33,551 nt of DNA from contig JACPKR010000054.1 in assembly GCA_016186945.1 (NCBI GenBank), positions 1 through 33,551 on the forward strand, written 5' to 3'. Below, one piece after another: positions 2,491-29,414 of the stretch (within the stretch, counting starts at the first letter, position 1; each line of letters starts with the position of its first letter). A model generated the notes under the pieces. It ran no database searches and had not been told where the DNA came from. It was given only the letters and a program-made list of their open reading frames with translations. Origin of the DNA: Deltaproteobacteria bacterium. GTDB lineage: Bacteria; Bdellovibrionota_B; Oligoflexia; Oligoflexales; Bog-1112. Both the position numbers and the translations under genes were made by a program.

Positions 2491-3444
2491 ATGAAAATTT
2501 TTATAACTGGTGCAACTGGATTTGTCGGCAAAGCCTTGACCAAAAGGTTGACTGCTGATCAGCATAGCGTTACCGCACTTATTCTCCCTACTGAGTTACC
2601 CCCATCGCAACGGAATACTGAGTACGTAAAAGCAGATCTTTGCGATGCCAAAACTTTATATGGTCTAACTCGAGGCCATGATGCGGTCATCCATTTAGCG
2701 GGAGCTGTTGGTTACGGCCAATCCTGGGCTGCCTGCCAGCGCGTTAATGTCACCGGCACCAAAAACATTGCCGAAGAAGCGATTCGCTCGGGTGTGCTTC
2801 GTTTTATTCATATGAGCAGCGTTTCCGTTTACGGCAGAAAAGCTAATTGTTCGATTGATGAAAACTCTCCTCTCGTGAAAATTGGGGATCCCTATGGGGA
2901 TACGAAAATCGACGCAGAACGTTTACTCACATCATTATCTCGTAGGAGTGGTATCGGTTTAACGATCCTTCGCCCTACTGTGATTTATGGGCCGAATGAC
3001 GACAAATTTCTTCCGAAAGTGGTCGAAAATCTTCGAAAGAAAAGTGCCGGCATCATAGGAAACGGTAAGAATCGCCTCGATCTGATTCATGTCGATGACG
3101 TTATCGACTTCCTGCTGCTTTCATTGGAAAATCCAAAAACAATCAACCAAACCTACAACCTAACCAATAACAGTAACGGCAATTGGGGCGACTTTTTAAA
3201 CTATCTCTCGTCCCTTATCGGCGAACCCCCGCCCACTCAACATATTCCCTATCCGTTTGCTTATGCAGTGGCTTCAACCCTCGAAATGATAGCAAAGTTC
3301 ACCAGACGGCCACCACGCATAACCCGTTATGCTGTTCGAGTTGTTGGGAAACACTATAATTACTTGACCGAAAAGGCTGAAAAAGAGTTAGGATACCAAG
3401 CAAAGCGAAAACTCAAACTAGCGCTAAAAGAGTGCCTGCCTTGA
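2491..3444 (+). CDS. NAD-dependent epimerase/dehydratase (extended SDR)
   Basis: This 317-residue extended SDR starts with MKIFITGATGFVG (nucleotide-binding TGATGFVG at 6-13). It has HLAG around residue 69, S109/S110 and the catalytic Y135-G-D-T-K139. The second half keeps the family's LRPTVIYGP and the IHVDDV substrate-side blocks. The C-terminus (PPRITRYAVRVVGKHYNY...AEKELGY) is like that of 3-beta-hydroxysteroid dehydrogenase-related proteins rather than UDP-glucose 4-epimerases. It starts 5 bases after the previous SDR and its last codons overlap the start of the glycyl radical enzyme, so the three are probably one transcript. The exact reaction is unknown. Confidence 0.88.
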   Translation: MKIFITGATGFVGKALTKRLTADQHSVTALILPTELPPSQRNTEYVKADLCDAKTLYGLTRGHDAVIHLAGAVGYGQSWAACQRVNVTGTKNIAEEAIRSGVLRFIHMSSVSVYGRKANCSIDENSPLVKIGDPYGDTKIDAERLLTSLSRRSGIGLTILRPTVIYGPNDDKFLPKVVENLRKKSAGIIGNGKNRLDLIHVDDVIDFLLLSLENPKTINQTYNLTNNSNGNWGDFLNYLSSLIGEPPPTQHIPYPFAYAVASTLEMIAKFTRRPPRITRYAVRVVGKHYNYLTEKAEKELGYQAKRKLKLALKECLP

Positions 3445-5948
3445 AACGCCTGCAAAACATCCGCAAGGATCTCTTGTCAGCGCGGTATCAAATGTGTACG
3501 CAAAAAGCTTTCCTCATGTCCGAGTTTATGAAGGGACAAAATCTTTTCAAGGAAAGCAGATTCGCGAAAATCGTTGCCCATTTTCACTATTATTTCTACA
3601 GAAAAAATTTGCGTGCACTGAGTGACGGCGTAAAGATTCCGGACTGGAAAGTCAAAGTCAACAGGTTCCTGAGTTCGTTTTATAAAACCTCGGAGGTAGA
3701 AAGCTCCAAACAGCTACGGTTTTGGGCCGAGACGTTACAATACATTCTCTCCAACATGAAATTACAGGTCTACGACCATGAGCTAATCGTGGGCAATCCC
3801 TCTTCGCATCGTATAGGAGCTCCCATTCATCCTGACTATTCGGGCATGTTAATGCTTAGGGAGTTGGACACCATTGCAACCAGGAAAATCAATCCACTGC
3901 AGATCACGAGAGAGGAAATTCTCAAGCTTAAAAAGGAGGTCTTCCCGATTTGGTTCCGACGAAGCGTTTTGTTTCACTCTTCCTTACGTTCCCTCCAACC
4001 ATCTATCCTAAACCGAATGCTAAGCGACGGTTACTTTCTTCTAACTCAGGTAGCGGGCATCTCACACTTGACACCAAACTACAGCCTTGTGCTGAAACGT
4101 GGGTTTCTAGGAATCAAAGAGGATATCCAAAAACAACAGAAGACAATCGGGGGCAGTGAAAAAGGAGACTTTTACTCCGCAACGCTCATCGTCATCGACG
4201 CTGCGATTGCTTATAGCGAACGTTGGTGCCATTTCCTGGCACAGCAGGCCGTGCAAACACCCGACTTGAGGCGAAAACAGGAATTGACGAACTTAGCCGA
4301 ACTGTTCAAGCGCGTGCCTGCCAACCCGGCAACAACTTTCCACGAAGCCCTTCAGAGTGTGTTTATTACGCATGTCATATTGCATCAAGAAAGTTTTCAG
4401 CATGGCATTTCGTTTGGCAGAATCGATCAATTCTTGTTGCCATACTATCAAAAAGATAGAGAGGAAGGCACGCTAACCCTCAGACAAGCCGTAGAGCTTA
4501 TCGGATGTTTCCTGGCAAAAGCAGGAGAGCTCCTGCCATTATTTCCGGACACCATCACCGAATACTTTAGCGGACTGTCTTCTGCTTCCGGCATAACCTT
4601 AGGCGGCAAGCGCTCATTGCTAGTTCCTCCCGACGCAATATCAGATGGGGTTAACGATCTTTCTTATTTGTTTCTCGTTGCGTACGATCAATTACGCCTC
4701 CGCCAACCTAACATCCATGTGCGGGTCCATCGGGATAGCCCCAAGAAATTTATGCGCTTGTGCTACCGTGTCTTGAAAAAAGGGGGGGGGATGCCCGCCT
4801 TTTTTAATGATGAACAAATCATCCCGATCTTGGAGAACCAAGGCTTCGCCCCTGACGATGCTCGCAACTATTCCATCGTCGGATGCACAGAGTGGGGCGT
4901 GCCCAACAAAAGCTTTCCTGCTGCCGGCGCCGGCTTCATTAACCTGGCGTTTGCATTACAACTCGCACTGAACAACGGGTATTATCGCAATCACAGGTTT
5001 GGTGCAAAGACAGGTGATCCCAACAGTTGGAATACCCTTGAAGAGGTAATTACAGCCTTTTCTAAGCAACTACGTTTTTTGGCTGAACTTGCTGTACAAG
5101 AAAACAACGTTATTGAAGATGTTCATGCGAAATTCCGACCGACACCCTTCCTCTCCGTTCTCGTCGAGGGTTGTATAGAAAACGGCAGAGAAGTCACCAC
5201 AGGTGGCGCCTGTTACAACAGCACCGGCTTACAAGGCGTTGGGGTGGCCGACGTTATTGACTCGCTCATTGCGATTGACCAGGTAGTGTTCCAGCAGAAA
5301 CAAATGAGTCTCGGCGTTTTTATAGACAAGGTCCGGGATAATTTTGTAAACGACAAATCACTGCACGCCTACCTGCTTAACAAAATTCCAAAGTTCGGAA
5401 ACGATGACTCGAAAGTCAATCAATGCGCCCAGAAAATTACAAGTATTTTTACAGAGATCGTTTGTTCGATGCAGAACCGTCGTGGCGGTCGCTACTTCCC
5501 AGGCTTCTGGTCGATGACGACGCACCAGGGTTTCGGTAAGCTCACAGATGCTCTCCCCAGCGGAAGGAAAAAGGGGGAATCACTGGCTAACGGTATGTCA
5601 CCATACTCAGGTTGGGATAGAAAAGGTCCAACCGCCACACTTAACTCAGCAGCCAATATAGATGGGGGAAAAACAGCAAACGGTGCGGTTTTGAATCTGA
5701 CTGTTGCCGCTAATCATATGGGGACTCATTCCAGATTTGAACAGATTGATGGACTCCTTAACGGCTATTTTACAAAAGGAGGTTTGCAATTACAGTTCAA
5801 CGTTTTAGATCGCCAATTGTTACTACAGGCCAAAAAGGAACCGGAAAAATTTCGCGACCTCGTGGTGAGAATTTCGGGGTACTCAGCATATTTCATTGAT
5901 CTAACCGAAGACATGCAAGATGAACTCATTGCGCGCACATCGTTCTGA
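3432..5948 (+). CDS. Glycyl radical enzyme (pyruvate formate-lyase-like, dehydratase/lyase group)
   Basis: This 838-residue protein has both hallmarks of glycyl radical enzymes. The active-site loop is VGCTEWG (C485, E487), the C-x-E arrangement of diol/glycerol dehydratases and choline TMA-lyase rather than the Cys-Cys of pyruvate formate-lyase. The C-terminal radical motif is RISGYSAYF (R813, G816), followed by LTEDMQDELIART. The protein carries out radical chemistry in anaerobic conditions after activation by a radical SAM enzyme, but no such activase is present in the window. The start is GTG at 3432, overlapping the preceding gene by 13 bases; the N-terminus (RLQNIRKDLLSARYQMCTQKAFL) aligns with family N-termini, so a later ATG would remove a conserved segment. 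The block usually read as H-x-x-P-D-Y is HLTPNY here (N216). Substrate unknown; the two SDRs suggest an alcohol/ketone substrate. Confidence 0.92.
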   Translation: MPALKRLQNIRKDLLSARYQMCTQKAFLMSEFMKGQNLFKESRFAKIVAHFHYYFYRKNLRALSDGVKIPDWKVKVNRFLSSFYKTSEVESSKQLRFWAETLQYILSNMKLQVYDHELIVGNPSSHRIGAPIHPDYSGMLMLRELDTIATRKINPLQITREEILKLKKEVFPIWFRRSVLFHSSLRSLQPSILNRMLSDGYFLLTQVAGISHLTPNYSLVLKRGFLGIKEDIQKQQKTIGGSEKGDFYSATLIVIDAAIAYSERWCHFLAQQAVQTPDLRRKQELTNLAELFKRVPANPATTFHEALQSVFITHVILHQESFQHGISFGRIDQFLLPYYQKDREEGTLTLRQAVELIGCFLAKAGELLPLFPDTITEYFSGLSSASGITLGGKRSLLVPPDAISDGVNDLSYLFLVAYDQLRLRQPNIHVRVHRDSPKKFMRLCYRVLKKGGGMPAFFNDEQIIPILENQGFAPDDARNYSIVGCTEWGVPNKSFPAAGAGFINLAFALQLALNNGYYRNHRFGAKTGDPNSWNTLEEVITAFSKQLRFLAELAVQENNVIEDVHAKFRPTPFLSVLVEGCIENGREVTTGGACYNSTGLQGVGVADVIDSLIAIDQVVFQQKQMSLGVFIDKVRDNFVNDKSLHAYLLNKIPKFGNDDSKVNQCAQKITSIFTEIVCSMQNRRGGRYFPGFWSMTTHQGFGKLTDALPSGRKKGESLANGMSPYSGWDRKGPTATLNSAANIDGGKTANGAVLNLTVAANHMGTHSRFEQIDGLLNGYFTKGGLQLQFNVLDRQLLLQAKKEPEKFRDLVVRISGYSAYFIDLTEDMQDELIARTSF

Positions 5949-5956
5949 AACCAAAG

Positions 5957-6021
5957 TTTTTGTCTTGGAGGAACCAGCTGCGCAGTTTCCTCCAAACCTC
6001 CTCCTTGCTGAGGGGGGCGGA
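5957..6021 (-). repeat. Family A hairpin repeat, copy 3
   Basis: The hairpin core at 5965-5995 (TTGGAGGAA ... TTCCTCCAA around CCAGCTGCGCAG) is followed by CCTCCTCCTTGCTGAGGGGGGCGGAG. It fills the whole gap between the convergent glycyl radical enzyme gene and the helicase-like gene. No U-tract follows, so it is not a canonical terminator, although it could act as one. Confidence 0.87.
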
Positions 6022-6022
6022 G

Positions 6023-7690
6023 TTACTTTTTCTTAGGCGAGAAGAAAGACAAGATCTTCTTAAGCAAGCTTTTTGGCTCCACTTGTTTTTCAAACTGCTG
6101 TGGCCTTTCGATTCGCTTGTAGGGATGCTGCCCCAATGCTTTGCGCGATCTTGGGCGCACCTGCTGCCTGTCGCGTGACTGAGGAACTGGCTCGCGTCTC
6201 TCACCTTCACCACGTGGGAAGGAGGAGGGACGTCGCTCGCCTTGAGACCGCATGCCGTCACGGCCTCTCTCCTGCCTTTCTCCCCTGAAGCGATTGTCGC
6301 GCGGACGTTCCCTCTCTCCAAATGTGCGCTCACCCATCGGTCCTGATGGGCGGTCCATGGGTCTGCGGAATTCTCTTGTCTCCGGAGTCTGAGTTTCAAT
6401 GAACGGGTTACCTGACTTGTCTATTAGGGTCAGATACTCCTCCTTGGGCCATTTCGGCTTCGGAGTTTTGGTGCCCAATAGCTCTTCAATTCCTTGGAAG
6501 AACTCTCCATATTGATCACAAACCAACGTGTAAACGATACCCGACCGCTCGGCTCTGCCCATATGCCCCACGCGGTCTAAATAGTCTTCCGGGTTCTCCG
6601 GCACATCAAAATTGTAGATATGCGAAACATCGGCAATATGAAGGTCGTGGCTAACCCGGTCCGTTGTGACGAGCACCTTTGTGTTTCCCGCCTTAATCTC
6701 TTTCAGTAAGTGAACCCGTCGCGATTGAGGCAGCTCTGCGTTGATCAACTCTACGGGAAATTGGTTCTCCTGCAACTTATGATGCAGCCAGGATGCGGTA
6801 AGTTTAGAGTTTGCAAAAACCAGCGCAAACCCGGGACTGTGATCCTTCAAAAGGCCCATGAGAACCTTAAACTTGTCGGGAGTCTCGCAAAGAAGGGCAT
6901 GCTGTTCCACCTCAGGAAGCTTCTCGTGCTCTCCTTCAAGATAGACATGCTTAGGATGTGTCAAGAATTCGAAAGCCAACTCCTTGACCTTCGCTGAAGA
7001 CGTGGAAGAAAAAAGAATTTTCTGACAGTGGATCGAGAAGCGTCCGAGCAAGAATTCCAGTTCCTCTTCATGTCCCTTGCTGACAGCAGCATCCATGTCT
7101 ACACCCACACATATCATGGCGTGTTTGAGACTCAACCGCTTTCTGACGTAGAACGGTCTTAGCGCCTCGGGTGTGGAAAAAAGAATATCAACGCCCTTGT
7201 GTATAGTTTCGCTAGCGTCTTCCCACTCAGTTTCATCTGTGGAAACAAAACTAGAAGACAGCCCCGTTTTTCCAAAAAGGCGATTGAATTTGTCGAAAGC
7301 CCGTTTTGTCAGTGCGTTGTTGGAATAAAGGAGAACCCCAAAAGGTCCAGTTCCAAGTGCCTCGCTAGCTTTTTTCCCTTTTAAAATCCGATCTGAAACA
7401 GTCGGGAAAATAACACCCGCCGTCCCGTTTGCTGCCTCTACGAAGACATCCTTGCCAGACATGATGGAAGGAAAAGAGGCCGATTGCAACGTGTTAGCTT
7501 TCTCCCATTTGGCCTCCGTCATGCACTTTCGGACCTCAGGCTCCCAATGAGACCCAGAGAGATCAAATAAAGAGGAAGGGTCAGCTTCAACCCCGGTGGA
7601 CGATCCTTCTTTTTCTTCAAAATTGCTTTCTTGTGCAGGCGAGGTGCTAGCTTCCAAGTTTAAATTTTGCTCTTCTGGCTTTAGGTTCAT
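6023..7690 (-). CDS. DEAD-box helicase-fold protein with degenerate ATPase motifs
   Basis: This 555-residue protein has the two RecA-like domains of DEAD-box RNA helicases. Its Q-motif-like segment (WEKANTLQSASFPSIMSGKD, about 62-81), TPEALR (Ib), FSSTSS (III, SAT-like), ALVFANSK (IV) and VLVTTDR (V) are recognisable. The catalytic motifs are altered: Walker A reads AANGTAGV (86-93) with no GKT, the DEAD box reads VDMD (197-200), and motif VI is DRVGHMGRAER (372-382) in place of HRxGRxGR. ATP hydrolysis is therefore unlikely. The N-terminus is acidic and low-complexity. The C-terminal ~130 residues are rich in R, G, E and P (GERERPRDNRFRGERQERGR), like RNA-binding RGG tails, and end in a Lys-rich stretch. 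It may be an RNA-binding scaffold. There are no frameshifts, so it looks maintained. Confidence 0.85.
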   Translation of the reverse strand: MNLKPEEQNLNLEASTSPAQESNFEEKEGSSTGVEADPSSLFDLSGSHWEPEVRKCMTEAKWEKANTLQSASFPSIMSGKDVFVEAANGTAGVIFPTVSDRILKGKKASEALGTGPFGVLLYSNNALTKRAFDKFNRLFGKTGLSSSFVSTDETEWEDASETIHKGVDILFSTPEALRPFYVRKRLSLKHAMICVGVDMDAAVSKGHEEELEFLLGRFSIHCQKILFSSTSSAKVKELAFEFLTHPKHVYLEGEHEKLPEVEQHALLCETPDKFKVLMGLLKDHSPGFALVFANSKLTASWLHHKLQENQFPVELINAELPQSRRVHLLKEIKAGNTKVLVTTDRVSHDLHIADVSHIYNFDVPENPEDYLDRVGHMGRAERSGIVYTLVCDQYGEFFQGIEELLGTKTPKPKWPKEEYLTLIDKSGNPFIETQTPETREFRRPMDRPSGPMGERTFGERERPRDNRFRGERQERGRDGMRSQGERRPSSFPRGEGERREPVPQSRDRQQVRPRSRKALGQHPYKRIERPQQFEKQVEPKSLLKKILSFFSPKKK

Positions 7691-7840
7691 TCGTCTTTTT
7701 TCCTAACAGGCTGTTATTTTAACGCTTTTCGACAAAGATTTCATCAGATCGCGAAAGTTGGGGCATAACCCATCAAAGAAGCGAACATATTTACCGATGT
7801 ATCTAATGGTATAGCATTTTTTATCAATGAGGTGAATGAA

Positions 7841-8284
7841 ATGGAGGCTCAAAGCACCGCTGTTGAAAACAAGTTAGATACCCCAGGAGAACAATCTGTC
7901 GCTGGCGAGGAAACCGCTGTCGAGGCTGCACCCTCCGGCGACAAGTCGGACCTGCAGGAAGCCCTACCGGAAACAGCTCGGGAGGGCAAACAAAAAGAAG
8001 CCACCGCCGATCCGCGAGGAATTCCCTGGGTCGATTTCGTTCCTGAGTTCACCCATAAACACCCAGAAAGTCTAGCAGGTCGTCTCGAGGAATTCTGCGA
8101 AGATTTAGGGGAGACCATGCAGGAAAAAGAAAAACTTAGATTCGCTGCCTTCTTGCAAAAATTGCACAGATCTTATACCTCTATGTGGGTGTCGGACTGC
8201 AATAAACTATTTCGTACCATTGCACGGCTCCATCGCCGCTATGTCGACTTGCAAGCGAATGCCGCCGCTGAAAAAGATAAGTAA
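7841..8284 (+). CDS. Hypothetical acidic protein
   Basis: This 147-residue protein of unknown family has an N-terminal ~65 residues that are disordered-looking and rich in E, A, P and T. The C-terminal half (from IPWVDFVPEF) is predicted helical, with LAGRLEEFCEDLGETMQEKEKLRFAAFLQKLHRSY and RTIARLHRRYVDLQ. ATG at 7841 is chosen over the in-frame GTG at 7832 because GAGGTG lies 6 bases before it. It is read divergently from the helicase-like gene and lies 59 bp upstream of the lipoprotein-tsaD-rsmA group, which it may precede in one transcript. No signal peptide or membrane segment is visible, so it is probably cytoplasmic. Confidence 0.7.
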   Translation: MEAQSTAVENKLDTPGEQSVAGEETAVEAAPSGDKSDLQEALPETAREGKQKEATADPRGIPWVDFVPEFTHKHPESLAGRLEEFCEDLGETMQEKEKLRFAAFLQKLHRSYTSMWVSDCNKLFRTIARLHRRYVDLQANAAAEKDK

Positions 8285-8343: not shown

Positions 8344-9156
8344 ATGAAAGCTTTTGTCTTGATTATTTCCGTGATCTTGATTTCAGGATGCATTCACGAA
8401 GACGAATTCAGAAAGGAACTTTTCGATGTCGAAAAACGACTCGTCGATTTGGAACACGACATAAAAGACAAGCAAAGCACCGACAACAAACAATACATTA
8501 GCTCATCGAGTCGAGTCGAGAGCATGGAGGAAGAATTTCAAAAAATGAAGGGTGAGGTAGAACGCCTGCGCATCGGAGTGCAAACAGGAGAACTGCCCGG
8601 ACAAACCGATCAAGAAGATTCCATTGCGAAAAAAATTGAAAAAACAAAAGAACAAATCAAAACATTGGAAAAAGAAAGAGAAACTCTTGAAAAATTGGAA
8701 GAACGTATTTCCGATTTAGAAAAATCACAGATGGAAATTCTGTCGATCCTGGAAAACTATGAAAACAAGGGAGGACAAAAGCGAAAAGCACTGGACTCTC
8801 TGGCTGAAGTTGAAAAGGCTTTCAAACGCCGAAACTACTTGCATATCATCGAAGATCTGCCCCCCGCTCTGAAGAAAGACTCGAAAAACAACATCGACTT
8901 CCTATTTTACTATTCGGAAAGTCTCTTCAAACTGGGCAAACTCAAAGAAGCAGCAGTTTCGTACAATGACCTCATCAAAAAAGATAAGAAAGATAAATAT
9001 GGATCAAAATCCTACTTTCGTATAGGGGACTGTTTTCGTTTTCTGGGAGACAATAAGGCGGCACTCTCCTACTATAAGCAACTTTTGGAGAAATATCCTA
9101 CAGGCCCAGAAAGTGAACGGGTGAGAAACCTGGTTAAGAAGATGGAAAATTCATGA
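8344..9156 (+). CDS. Coiled-coil and TPR lipoprotein (YbgF/CpoB-like)
   Basis: This 270-residue lipoprotein has a short signal peptide with lipobox LISGC (Cys16). It is followed by a long Lys/Glu-rich coiled coil (about residues 25-140) and C-terminal tetratricopeptide repeats (FYYSESLFKLGKLKEAAVSYNDLIKK and SYFRIGDCFRFLGDNKAALSYYKQLLEKYP). This is the arrangement of YbgF/CpoB, a periplasmic partner of the Tol-Pal/peptidoglycan machinery, though here it is lipid-anchored and no tol or pal genes are adjacent. It overlaps tsaD by 4 bases (ATGA), so the two are co-translated. An N-terminal coiled coil for trimerisation and C-terminal TPRs for partner binding are the family features; the exact partner is not known. 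Confidence 0.8.
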   Translation: MKAFVLIISVILISGCIHEDEFRKELFDVEKRLVDLEHDIKDKQSTDNKQYISSSSRVESMEEEFQKMKGEVERLRIGVQTGELPGQTDQEDSIAKKIEKTKEQIKTLEKERETLEKLEERISDLEKSQMEILSILENYENKGGQKRKALDSLAEVEKAFKRRNYLHIIEDLPPALKKDSKNNIDFLFYYSESLFKLGKLKEAAVSYNDLIKKDKKDKYGSKSYFRIGDCFRFLGDNKAALSYYKQLLEKYPTGPESERVRNLVKKMENS

Positions 9157-10178
9157 AGATACTCGGGATTGAATCGAGCTGCGATGAGACTGCGCTTGCC
9201 CTTGTCGAGGACGGGCGTAAGGTTTTAAGCACGAACCTTACATCTCAGGACGTCCACACACTCTATGGAGGTGTGATTCCCGAAATAGCAGCAAGAGAAC
9301 ACCTACGGATGATTCATCCCCTCTACAAGAAAACATTGGCCGATGCAGACATGTCTCCCGAAGACATCGACGCAATCGCAGTTACACAGGGTCCAGGGCT
9401 GATCGGCGCCCTGCTGGTAGGTGTTTCCTTCGCCAAAGGTCTTGCCACTACCCTGCGCAAGCCCCTCATCCCTGTGAATCACGTACATGCCCATGTCCAC
9501 GGCGCACTCCTGGGAATACCCGAAAACATCAGACGAGAAGAACTTTTCCCAAGCTTGGCTTTGGTAGTTTCAGGAGGGCACACCCACCTTTATTTCATGA
9601 ATACTCCGATGCAGTTCCAGCTCCTTGCGTCTTCCCAAGATGATGCCTGCGGAGAATGCTTCGACAAAGTCGCAAAACTCCTTGGCCTGGGATATCCAGG
9701 AGGTGCAGCGATCGAAGCGTTGGCTCGGGAAGGTGACGAGACAAAAGTCGTGATGCCAAAAATGATGGACGAGAAAGAGCAGATGGCCTTCAGCTACTCC
9801 GGTCTAAAAACACACGTACTTTACCTTATACAAAAGGAGCAGCTGCCCATCCCCTCACAACGTAGGAAGGATATCTGCGCCGCCTTTCAGAAAGAAGCCA
9901 TAGGGCAAATCGTGCGAAAATTACAAACCGCACACTCCCTTCACCCCAATGTCAGATCTATCATCGTATCGGGGGGAGTGGCCGCGAATCATTACTTCCG
10001 TCAAGCTGTAAAGGAAGCCTGCCCCATACCTTCCTACTTCCCCGATCAAAAATACTGTTCAGACAATGCCGCAATGATTGCCACCTACGCATGGTTTCGC
10101 TATAGGAACAGCACTTCTGAACAATTTCATAACTTAGACTGGGATGCCTTCGCTAAATATCAACATGCAGCCCAATAA
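9153..10178 (+). CDS. tsaD: tRNA N6-adenosine threonylcarbamoyltransferase TsaD
   Basis: This 341-residue TsaD (Kae1/YgjD) transfers threonylcarbamoyl from TC-AMP to A37 of ANN-decoding tRNAs, working with TsaB and TsaE. It starts with the family's MKILGIESSCDETALAL. It has GGVIPEIAAREH, the metal-binding HxxxH pair (H110, H114 in NHVHAH), SGGHTHLYF, and the C-terminal SDNAAMIA metal/nucleotide block. Length is normal. The start ATG overlaps the lipoprotein stop by 4 bases. It is followed 22 bases later by rsmA, another RNA-modification gene. The sequence is ordinary and is taken as functional. Confidence 0.96.
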   Translation: MKILGIESSCDETALALVEDGRKVLSTNLTSQDVHTLYGGVIPEIAAREHLRMIHPLYKKTLADADMSPEDIDAIAVTQGPGLIGALLVGVSFAKGLATTLRKPLIPVNHVHAHVHGALLGIPENIRREELFPSLALVVSGGHTHLYFMNTPMQFQLLASSQDDACGECFDKVAKLLGLGYPGGAAIEALAREGDETKVVMPKMMDEKEQMAFSYSGLKTHVLYLIQKEQLPIPSQRRKDICAAFQKEAIGQIVRKLQTAHSLHPNVRSIIVSGGVAANHYFRQAVKEACPIPSYFPDQKYCSDNAAMIATYAWFRYRNSTSEQFHNLDWDAFAKYQHAAQ

Positions 10179-10199: not shown

Positions 10200-10979
10200 A
10201 TGAGACAGACAAGAAAATTGTCGCAAGTGTTTCTGCATACAAACTGGCCCTGTAAAAAAATCGCCGATCAGCTTAAAACGGAGAATGTAAAGTCAGTTCT
10301 GGAAATAGGGCCTGGAAAAGGGATTCTCACCAAGGAACTCCTCGATGCGGGTTTGTCCGTAACAAGTGTAGAAATGGATATACGTTTTGTTCACTACGTC
10401 ATGAAACGATTTGCATCAGAAAGTGCAAAGGGACAATTTTCCGTTTCCCACCAGAATATACTCCACTTCGACTACGATCTCTGGTTGCGAAATGCCCCAA
10501 CACCTCATGCTGTAGTTGGGAACATCCCCTACCATATTTCCTCTGATCTCATACATTGGTTCTTGCCTAAACTTTCCGACTTGAAAATAGCGGTATTCCT
10601 CCTTCAAAAGGAATTTGCTGAACGCCTGATCTCACCCCCCGGACAGAAAAGCTACGGAAGCCTGAGCGTCTACACCCAGCTCCGATCCAAGGTGTCCTGG
10701 GAAGGAAAGGTGGACCGTGACTGCTTTACTCCGATCCCTAATGTCGACAGCGCACTGGTCGCTTTTCGTAAGCGACCTGACAAGGAATCACCCGACCTTC
10801 TTGCCAAAGTTGAGGACATTACAAAAAAGGCTTTTTCCCAACGCCGCAAAAAACTTTCCAATGCCTTAAAACCTTATCTCGATCAGATGAACCCAGAGGA
10901 CATTCCCTTCAACACTTCATTGCGAGCCGAATCCCTTAGCCCAGAACAGTTCCTCGACTTTGCTCGTTTTTTTAAGTGA
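10200..10979 (+). CDS. rsmA: 16S rRNA dimethyladenosine transferase RsmA (KsgA)
   Basis: This 259-residue SAM-dependent methyltransferase dimethylates two adjacent adenines in the 3'-terminal helix 45 of 16S rRNA during 30S maturation. It shows QVFLH (family Q-x-FL), the SAM-binding VLEIGPGKGILT (about 34-45), EMD for the ribose, the catalytic NIPYHISS motif, and the C-terminal helical domain with FSQRRKKLSNAL. It follows tsaD with a short gap and no terminator, so it is probably in the same operon. ATG at 10200 has no strong ribosome site, consistent with read-through from tsaD. The TGA ends only a few bases before a family A repeat. Confidence 0.95.
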   Translation: MRQTRKLSQVFLHTNWPCKKIADQLKTENVKSVLEIGPGKGILTKELLDAGLSVTSVEMDIRFVHYVMKRFASESAKGQFSVSHQNILHFDYDLWLRNAPTPHAVVGNIPYHISSDLIHWFLPKLSDLKIAVFLLQKEFAERLISPPGQKSYGSLSVYTQLRSKVSWEGKVDRDCFTPIPNVDSALVAFRKRPDKESPDLLAKVEDITKKAFSQRRKKLSNALKPYLDQMNPEDIPFNTSLRAESLSPEQFLDFARFFK

Positions 10980-10984
10980 CGAAT

Positions 10985-11100
10985 TAAGCCACTTGCGGCA
11001 AGGAGGTGGTTTGGAGGAAACTGCGCAGCTGGTTCCTCCAAGAAATCCGGGGGAGGCGACGCATCACTCGCCCCCCCAAACCCCCCTCTCCCTATTTGAC
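10985..11100 (+). repeat. Family A hairpin repeat, copy 4 (near full length)
   Basis: This copy has the left end TAAGCCACTTGCGGCAAGG, which matches the left end of the intact copy at 29282, and hairpin core at 11011-11041. The family tail continues as GGGGGAGGCGACGC, CACTCGCCCCCCC and CCCCTCTCCCTATTTG. The right inverted-repeat arm is lost: after CTATTTG the sequence reads ACATAGCC instead of CCCCAAGTGGCTTA. The left edge begins 6 bases after the rsmA stop. Confidence 0.85.
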
Positions 11101-14217: not shown

Positions 14218-14275
14218 GGGAAAATGGCAAGGAGGTGGTTTGGAGGAAACTGCGCAGCTGGTTCCTCCAAGAATT
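14218..14275 (+). repeat. Family A hairpin repeat, copy 6 (left half only)
   Basis: GGCAAGGAGGTGG followed by the hairpin core at 14240-14270 matches the left half of the family; the tail and right end are missing. An open frame starting at 14224 reads through this repeat into the next gene, but those codons are not taken as coding. Confidence 0.85.
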
Positions 14276-29281: not shown

Positions 29282-29414
29282 TAAGCCACCTGGGGCAAGG
29301 AGGTGGTTTGGAGGAAACTGCGCAGCTGGTTCCTCCAAGAAATCCCTTGGGGGAGGCGACGCTTCACTCGCCCCCCCCCAAACCCCCCTCTCCCTATTTG
29401 CCCCAAGTGGCTTA
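29282..29414 (+). repeat. Family A repeat, copy 7: intact MITE-like element
   Basis: This copy is complete. It begins TAAGCCACCTGGGGCAA (29282-29298) and ends TTGCCCCAAGTGGCTTA (29398-29414), 17-bp terminal inverted repeats with one mismatch. Inside lies the hairpin core at 29308-29338 and the G/C-rich tail. With the outermost TA on both sides read as a target duplication, this is a 129-bp element with 15-bp arms, the pattern of IS630/Tc1-mariner-derived MITEs. It carries no gene. Confidence 0.85.

Follow-up and report, generated by a model that had tools for sequence, protein, structure and literature searches.

An RhlB-clade DEAD-box protein with a degenerate catalytic core is retained under purifying selection in Oligoflexia

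The window analysed here, 33,551 nucleotides of contig JACPKR010000054.1 from a Deltaproteobacteria bacterium of the GTDB class Oligoflexia (assembly GCA_016186945.1), contains a gene for a DEAD-box protein, hereafter called P0001, in which the motifs of the ATPase core are degenerate and the reading frame is whole. The frame runs on the minus strand (6023..7690) from an ATG at 7690 to a stop codon at 6023-6025 and comprises 555 codons with no internal stop, as the original prediction, made from the nucleotide sequence, had stated. P0001 matches the Pfam families DEAD (44.5 bits) and Helicase_C (62 bits), both above cut-off, and two RecA-like domains, as in the SF2 DEAD-box fold, were recognised with Pfam, in an AF2 model and with VIA-align. 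In the model 301 residues, corresponding to both RecA domains and the helix following RecA2, have pLDDT ≥ 90, and the tail is disordered. Comparison of the model with DEAD-box structures (VIA-align) gave Z scores from about 34 to 28; the closest solved folds are DEAD-box proteins, several of them bound to partners (DDX6-CNOT1, Dbp5-Gle1, CshA-LepA). The predicted structure of the Fluviispira orthologue likewise has two RecA domains.

The RecA1 domain (residues 44-252; 6935..7561, minus strand) is modelled with pLDDT mostly of 87-97 and keeps 27 of the 66 positions which are at least 90 % conserved among canonical orthologues. RecA2 (residues 253-385; 6536..6934, minus strand) keeps 40 of 61 such positions, including motif IV and QxxR, and the post-RecA2 segment, VCDQYG...GNPF (residues 386-432; 6395..6535, minus strand), all eight. 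It is followed by an arginine-rich tail with a net charge of +12 and low predicted order (residues 433-541; 6068..6394, minus strand) and by a basic and hydrophobic C-terminal peptide, LLKKILSFFSPKKK (residues 542-555; 6026..6067, minus strand), which is recognisable in most of the members of the order shown.

The motifs of P0001, all encoded on the minus strand, were compared with those of 40 complete canonical orthologues. Walker A reads AANGTAGV (7412..7435) instead of TGTGKTGV; EAANGTA stands where the canonical proteins have QTGTGKT, and both the Lys and the Thr are gone. Motif II is VDMD (7091..7102) in place of DEAD, DEVD or DECD (D197V and E198D, with D200 retained), and motif VI is DRVGHMGR (6554..6577) in place of HRIGRTAR (H372D and R376H, with R373 and R379 retained). 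All three changes had been noticed in the original prediction and hold against the alignment; neither the Walker A lysine with a DEAD or DExD box, as in active DEAD-box enzymes, nor the arginine-finger motif HRxGRxxR is present. Further losses, which had not been listed, affect the RNA contacts: motif Ia is SNNAL for canonical PTREL (7310..7324), motif Ib is TPEA for TPGR (7163..7174) and the GG motif of RecA1 has been replaced (G151T, G152D). Motif V is partly degenerate, TDRVSHDLHI for TDVASRGLHI (6635..6664), with loss of its R-G (R348H, G349D), and motif III is SST, not SAT. Motifs III to V and the Q region had been described as remaining, which is correct for Q69 and motif IV but not for the R-G of motif V; QxxR is kept as well. 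With these additional losses, the RNA path over RecA1 has gone together with the ATP site. A change of motif IV from FTNTK to FANSK or FANTK, seen in all degenerate lineages, was considered as a case of convergence and rejected, E. coli RhlB also having FANTK.

The corresponding protein of a congener (L027, genome G001), 40 % identical to P0001, has lost the same motifs, and the two have derived states in common (Cys to Gly and Glu to Asp in motif II, Gly to Asp in motif V). The other members of the family and order which were examined are all canonical. The degeneracy is therefore not attributable to chance or to an assembly error.

Orthologues of P0001 in the order adjoin the same genes, which in the window are transcribed from the plus strand, divergently from P0001: a small gene without Pfam match (7832..8284), a TPR protein gene (8344..9156), tsaD (9153..10178) and a gene for a 16S rRNA dimethyltransferase of the rsmA/ksgA type (10200..10979). 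The window gene is thus the positional orthologue and not a spare paralogue. The family linked to TPR, tsaD and rsmA is single-copy and groups with E. coli RhlB: the canonical orthologues and E. coli RhlB form one clade (SH-aLRT 99), from which RhlE, DeaD, SrmB and DbpA stand apart, on a tree in which CshA was not placed. Synteny and the family tree tie P0001 to these canonical orthologues and so to the RhlB clade. The best NCBIfam model for P0001 is also RhlB, at 182 bits, below the equivalog cut-off of 588 bits; as the canonical orthologues (360-400 bits) fall short of it too, membership of the clade and not equivalence to RhlB is indicated. P0001 shares with E. coli RhlB the post-RecA2 signature C-[ED]-x-Y-[AG] and a basic tail; it differs from RhlB in having no intact Walker A, DEAD box, Ia, Ib, GG motif or arginine finger, in its score below the NCBIfam cut-off and in coming from a genome in which RNase E/G was not found. 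CshA, the DEAD-box helicase of the Firmicutes degradosome, gives the best sequence match in the PDB (5ivl, E 3e-35) and is also a structural match, but it is catalytically competent and its HMM score is lower than that of RhlB. RhlB and CshA, rather than RhlE and CsdA with which a comparison had been proposed, are the closest relatives by family and by solved structure.

Of 58 genomes of the GTDB class that were searched, 51 gave an orthologue, 41 with canonical motifs (40 complete and one partial) and ten degenerate. The degenerate set consists of the window's genome (G000) and its congener, seven genomes of a Silvanigrellaceae genus (g25) which includes Fluviispira multicolorata and Spirobacillus cienkowskii, and genome G054. 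Silvanigrellaceae belong to the same GTDB class, Oligoflexia, as the window organism but to a different order. In a tree built without the motif columns, the window's genus lies beside L028, a canonical sequence of family f1, and the remaining degenerate sequences fall inside another family (f12). A single clade of all ten degenerate sequences is rejected (AU p = 7e-5), and catalysis, as judged from the motifs, is therefore lost independently at least twice in the class. Parsimony gives two losses; the Silvanigrellaceae genus and G054, which has a very long branch, may be counted as one or two. A search of genome contigs with P0001 as the sole query gave no match. In two genomes of another family of the same order (G010 and G019, family f4), no DEAD-box RNA helicase was strongly matched by the P0001 query.

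The degenerate genes are under purifying selection. Those degenerate pairs whose divergence is usable gave core omega values of 0.020 (upper bound 0.034; L087-L090, both Silvanigrellaceae) and 0.010 (upper bound 0.038; L086-L091), similar to the 0.001-0.04 of canonical pairs. For P0001 and its congener omega is at most 0.145, a value usable as an upper bound only because dS is saturated, with a likelihood ratio statistic of 103 against omega = 1; in each domain of P0001 taken separately omega is below 1 and neutrality is excluded. Both members of the genus have the altered state, and dN/dS is well below 1; these two results together bear out the view in the original prediction that the gene is retained at full length with a presumably non-hydrolysing core. 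The contrary case it had named, normal motifs in orthologues combined with relaxed selection in this copy, was found in its first part, orthologues outside the genus being normal, but the gene is still constrained, though RecA1 is much less conserved. P0001 has lost the catalytic residues, has kept the fold and is maintained by selection, as is expected of a pseudohelicase.

The constraint is unevenly distributed. The proportion of conserved positions kept (those at least 90 % conserved among canonical members) differs between RecA1, 27 of 66, and the post-RecA2 segment, 8 of 8 (p = 0.0016, based on only eight highly conserved positions in the latter), and RecA1, RecA2 and post-RecA2 rank in the same way in the other degenerate lineages. 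Identity between P0001 and its congener is 29 % in RecA1, 50 % in RecA2, 64 % in the post-RecA2 segment and, at the C-terminal end, 71 %, and the tail, with 22 %, is one of the least conserved parts. For canonical pairs of this family, which are less closely related than the two congeners, the values are 47-53 % in RecA1, 56-69 % in RecA2 and 38-57 % in the post-RecA2 segment. The excess to be expected from kinship is modest, as the identity of the neighbouring TsaD is 63 % within the genus and 53-60 % between the window and other genera of the family. In a sliding-window comparison the degenerate congener pair equals or exceeds the mean of the canonical pairs at about residues 257-316 and 389-436 and lies far below it at the RecA1 motifs. 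On the evidence of these alignments constraint is lost in RecA1 and is retained in RecA2 and the post-RecA2 segment.

In the window's genome, which is 91 % complete, no other DEAD-box RNA helicase was found, an absence that is likely but not proven at this completeness. Besides P0001, the proteins that match PF00270 above cut-off are Mfd, two Hel308-like proteins, PriA, an XPB-like protein, RapA, SecA, UvrB and a DinG-like protein. The two Hel308-like (Ski2-type) genes, L003 and L004 on contigs C20 and C23, score under the family cut-offs. RNase E/G was looked for without success in this genome, in the congener and in the nearest canonical relative (G005), so that within the 91 % of the genome that is available there is no sign of the RNase E scaffold expected for an RhlB equivalog; RNase Y and PNPase do occur there. 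RNase E/G is present in the remaining five members of the window's family. In the class its frames are short, about 400-555 amino acids, and RNase G-like; for a pseudo-helicase docked on an RNase E scaffold there is thus no support, given also the three genomes in which RNase E/G was not found. Loss of RNase E/G was likewise rejected as a general cause of helicase decay: some of the genomes in which the enzyme was not found have a canonical helicase (G005, G013, G020 and others), and degenerate Silvanigrellaceae possess RNase E/G. One Silvanigrellaceae genome (G047, C1:19184-19994) has RNase E/G in two adjoining frames, covering profile positions 1-93 and 93-270; the gene is whole in a close relative (G046), and the split is a frameshift or a sequencing error.

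Taken together, the motif losses, the modelled fold, the persisting frame and coding constraint, and the preservation, best in RecA2, the post-RecA2 segment and the C-terminal end, make it somewhat more probable than not, in our judgement, that P0001 is an RhlB-clade pseudo-helicase which no longer binds or hydrolyses ATP and has been retained for docking or as an adaptor, a non-catalytic subunit most likely of an RNA-decay or RNP complex. That the same change recurred independently in related bacteria suggests that the protein is now a docking part rather than a motor, and docking kept with the motor lost would be the simplest reading. E. coli RhlB is a weak ATPase dependent on RNase E, which engages its C-terminal RecA domain; the docking surface proposed, residues 368-397, is a prediction that point mutants have tested only in part (PMC7611231). 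The post-RecA2 segment of P0001 overlaps this proposed surface, whose counterpart in the alignment is P0001 residues 398-431, approximately. A putative partner protein may be bound by RecA2 and the post-RecA2 segment in a manner like that proposed for RhlB and RNase E, and the basic tail may hold RNA; the protein would then tether RNA or, with no unwinding, assemble an RNP or decay complex. As no RNase E/G was found in the genome, the candidate partner would be another protein, for example PNPase, RNase Y or a ribosome-assembly factor; RhlB of Deinococcus radiodurans is reported to bind PNPase independently of RNA (PMC9430589). A common partner for all lineages does not follow, since the C-terminal region of the Silvanigrellaceae proteins differs. 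More tentatively, the RhlB-clade helicase of the class may have been converted repeatedly from an ATP motor to a subunit dedicated to docking; in the lineage of the window this would accompany the rebuilding of a decay machinery that has no RNase E/G. If this is true, a DEAD-box protein can have a structural role that is separable from its helicase activity and outlives it.

Several other explanations would account for parts of these observations. That the gene is a pseudogene on its way to being lost, the open frame being a remnant, would agree with the loss of most of the conserved residues of RecA1 and the fast evolution of that domain, but is scarcely credible for ten degenerate genes that are all free of stops and frameshifts, are still 35-40 % identical within the window's genus and have omega far below 1 in every domain; such coding constraint contradicts a remnant, and the functional loss was fixed at least twice without loss of the gene. 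An unorthodox ATPase or a nucleotide-binding switch with a remodelled pocket is very unlikely: although P0001 keeps D200 in motif II, the Gln of the Q motif and two of the three motif VI arginines, the Lys and Thr of Walker A and the Glu of Walker B are gone, and its congener has D for the Q-motif Gln and a two-residue deletion in Walker A. A competitor of a true DEAD-box helicase, as suggested in the original prediction, or a dominant-negative regulator of one appears just as improbable. The congener and the Silvanigrellaceae do carry other DEAD-box helicases, those examined in the congener being canonical, but the RecA1 contacts needed at the usual RNA site have been lost, and competition is unlikely in a genome, 91 % complete, in which no such helicase was found. 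The original prediction therefore stands in part, as to a constrained, presumably non-hydrolysing pseudo-helicase and not as to a competitor.

It had also proposed RNA binding, for which the case is weak in the helicase core, whose RecA1 contacts Ia, GG and Ib are gone; any binding of RNA is on this account more likely to occur through the arginine-rich tail. An RNA chaperone or tether, in which this tail and the C-terminal peptide are the useful parts and the RecA core is a mere stable carrier without a specific partner, is accordingly conceivable, if rather unlikely. A net-positive, arginine-rich tail is retained in both members of the genus, but, unlike the conserved RecA2 and post-RecA2 segment, it is only 22 % identical between them, and the C-terminal region of the degenerate Silvanigrellaceae proteins, while containing Lys, is much less rich in Arg. 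A cofactor of ribosome assembly which, like yeast Utp25, guides pre-rRNA or other assembly factors has a precedent in Utp25 itself (PMC9539457) and a possible hint in the rsmA/ksgA neighbourhood conserved across the order. This reading is improbable: transcription of the helicase gene points away from rsmA and tsaD, and neither the Silvanigrellaceae nor G005 have preserved the neighbourhood, for which reasons the link to rsmA is positional only.

In the literature searched, only yeast Utp25 and D. radiodurans PriA were found described as catalytically dead pseudohelicases, and others may exist beyond it; neither is a bacterial RNA helicase. Utp25/Def of the yeast SSU processome resembles P0001 in being a retained protein with a full DEAD-box fold and vestigial motifs (PMC9539457), but is eukaryotic and was proposed to derive from a duplicate, whereas in the family of P0001 catalysis was lost, at least twice, in the RhlB-clade orthologue itself, which is single-copy. 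D. radiodurans PriA is, like P0001, the orthologue of a bacterial housekeeping helicase which lost its ATPase motifs in one lineage and was kept (PMC4504706); it is a DNA replication restart helicase and not a DEAD-box protein. Biochemistry exists for PriA, and the P0001 family is known from sequence and predicted structures. The family represents a single-copy bacterial RNA helicase orthologue in which catalysis was lost at least twice, which was kept each time under strong purifying selection and in which the same part is best preserved, and offers a natural separation-of-function experiment on how much of the role of a degradosome helicase is structural.

Elsewhere in the window, a gene for a pyruvate formate-lyase-like glycyl radical enzyme (3432-5948, plus strand) converges on the pseudo-helicase gene, and the only Rfam match is a tRNA. 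A 27-base imperfect palindrome, GGAGGAACCAGCTGCGCAGTTTCCTCC, a REP-like and very abundant dispersed repeat, has six copies in the window (0 expected), three on the plus strand (227-253, 1607-1633 and 5967-5993) and three on the minus strand (11013-11039, 14242-14268 and 29310-29336). With up to two mismatches it occurs 391 times in the genome (0 for a reversed-pattern control), and one copy lies just downstream of the pseudo-helicase gene.
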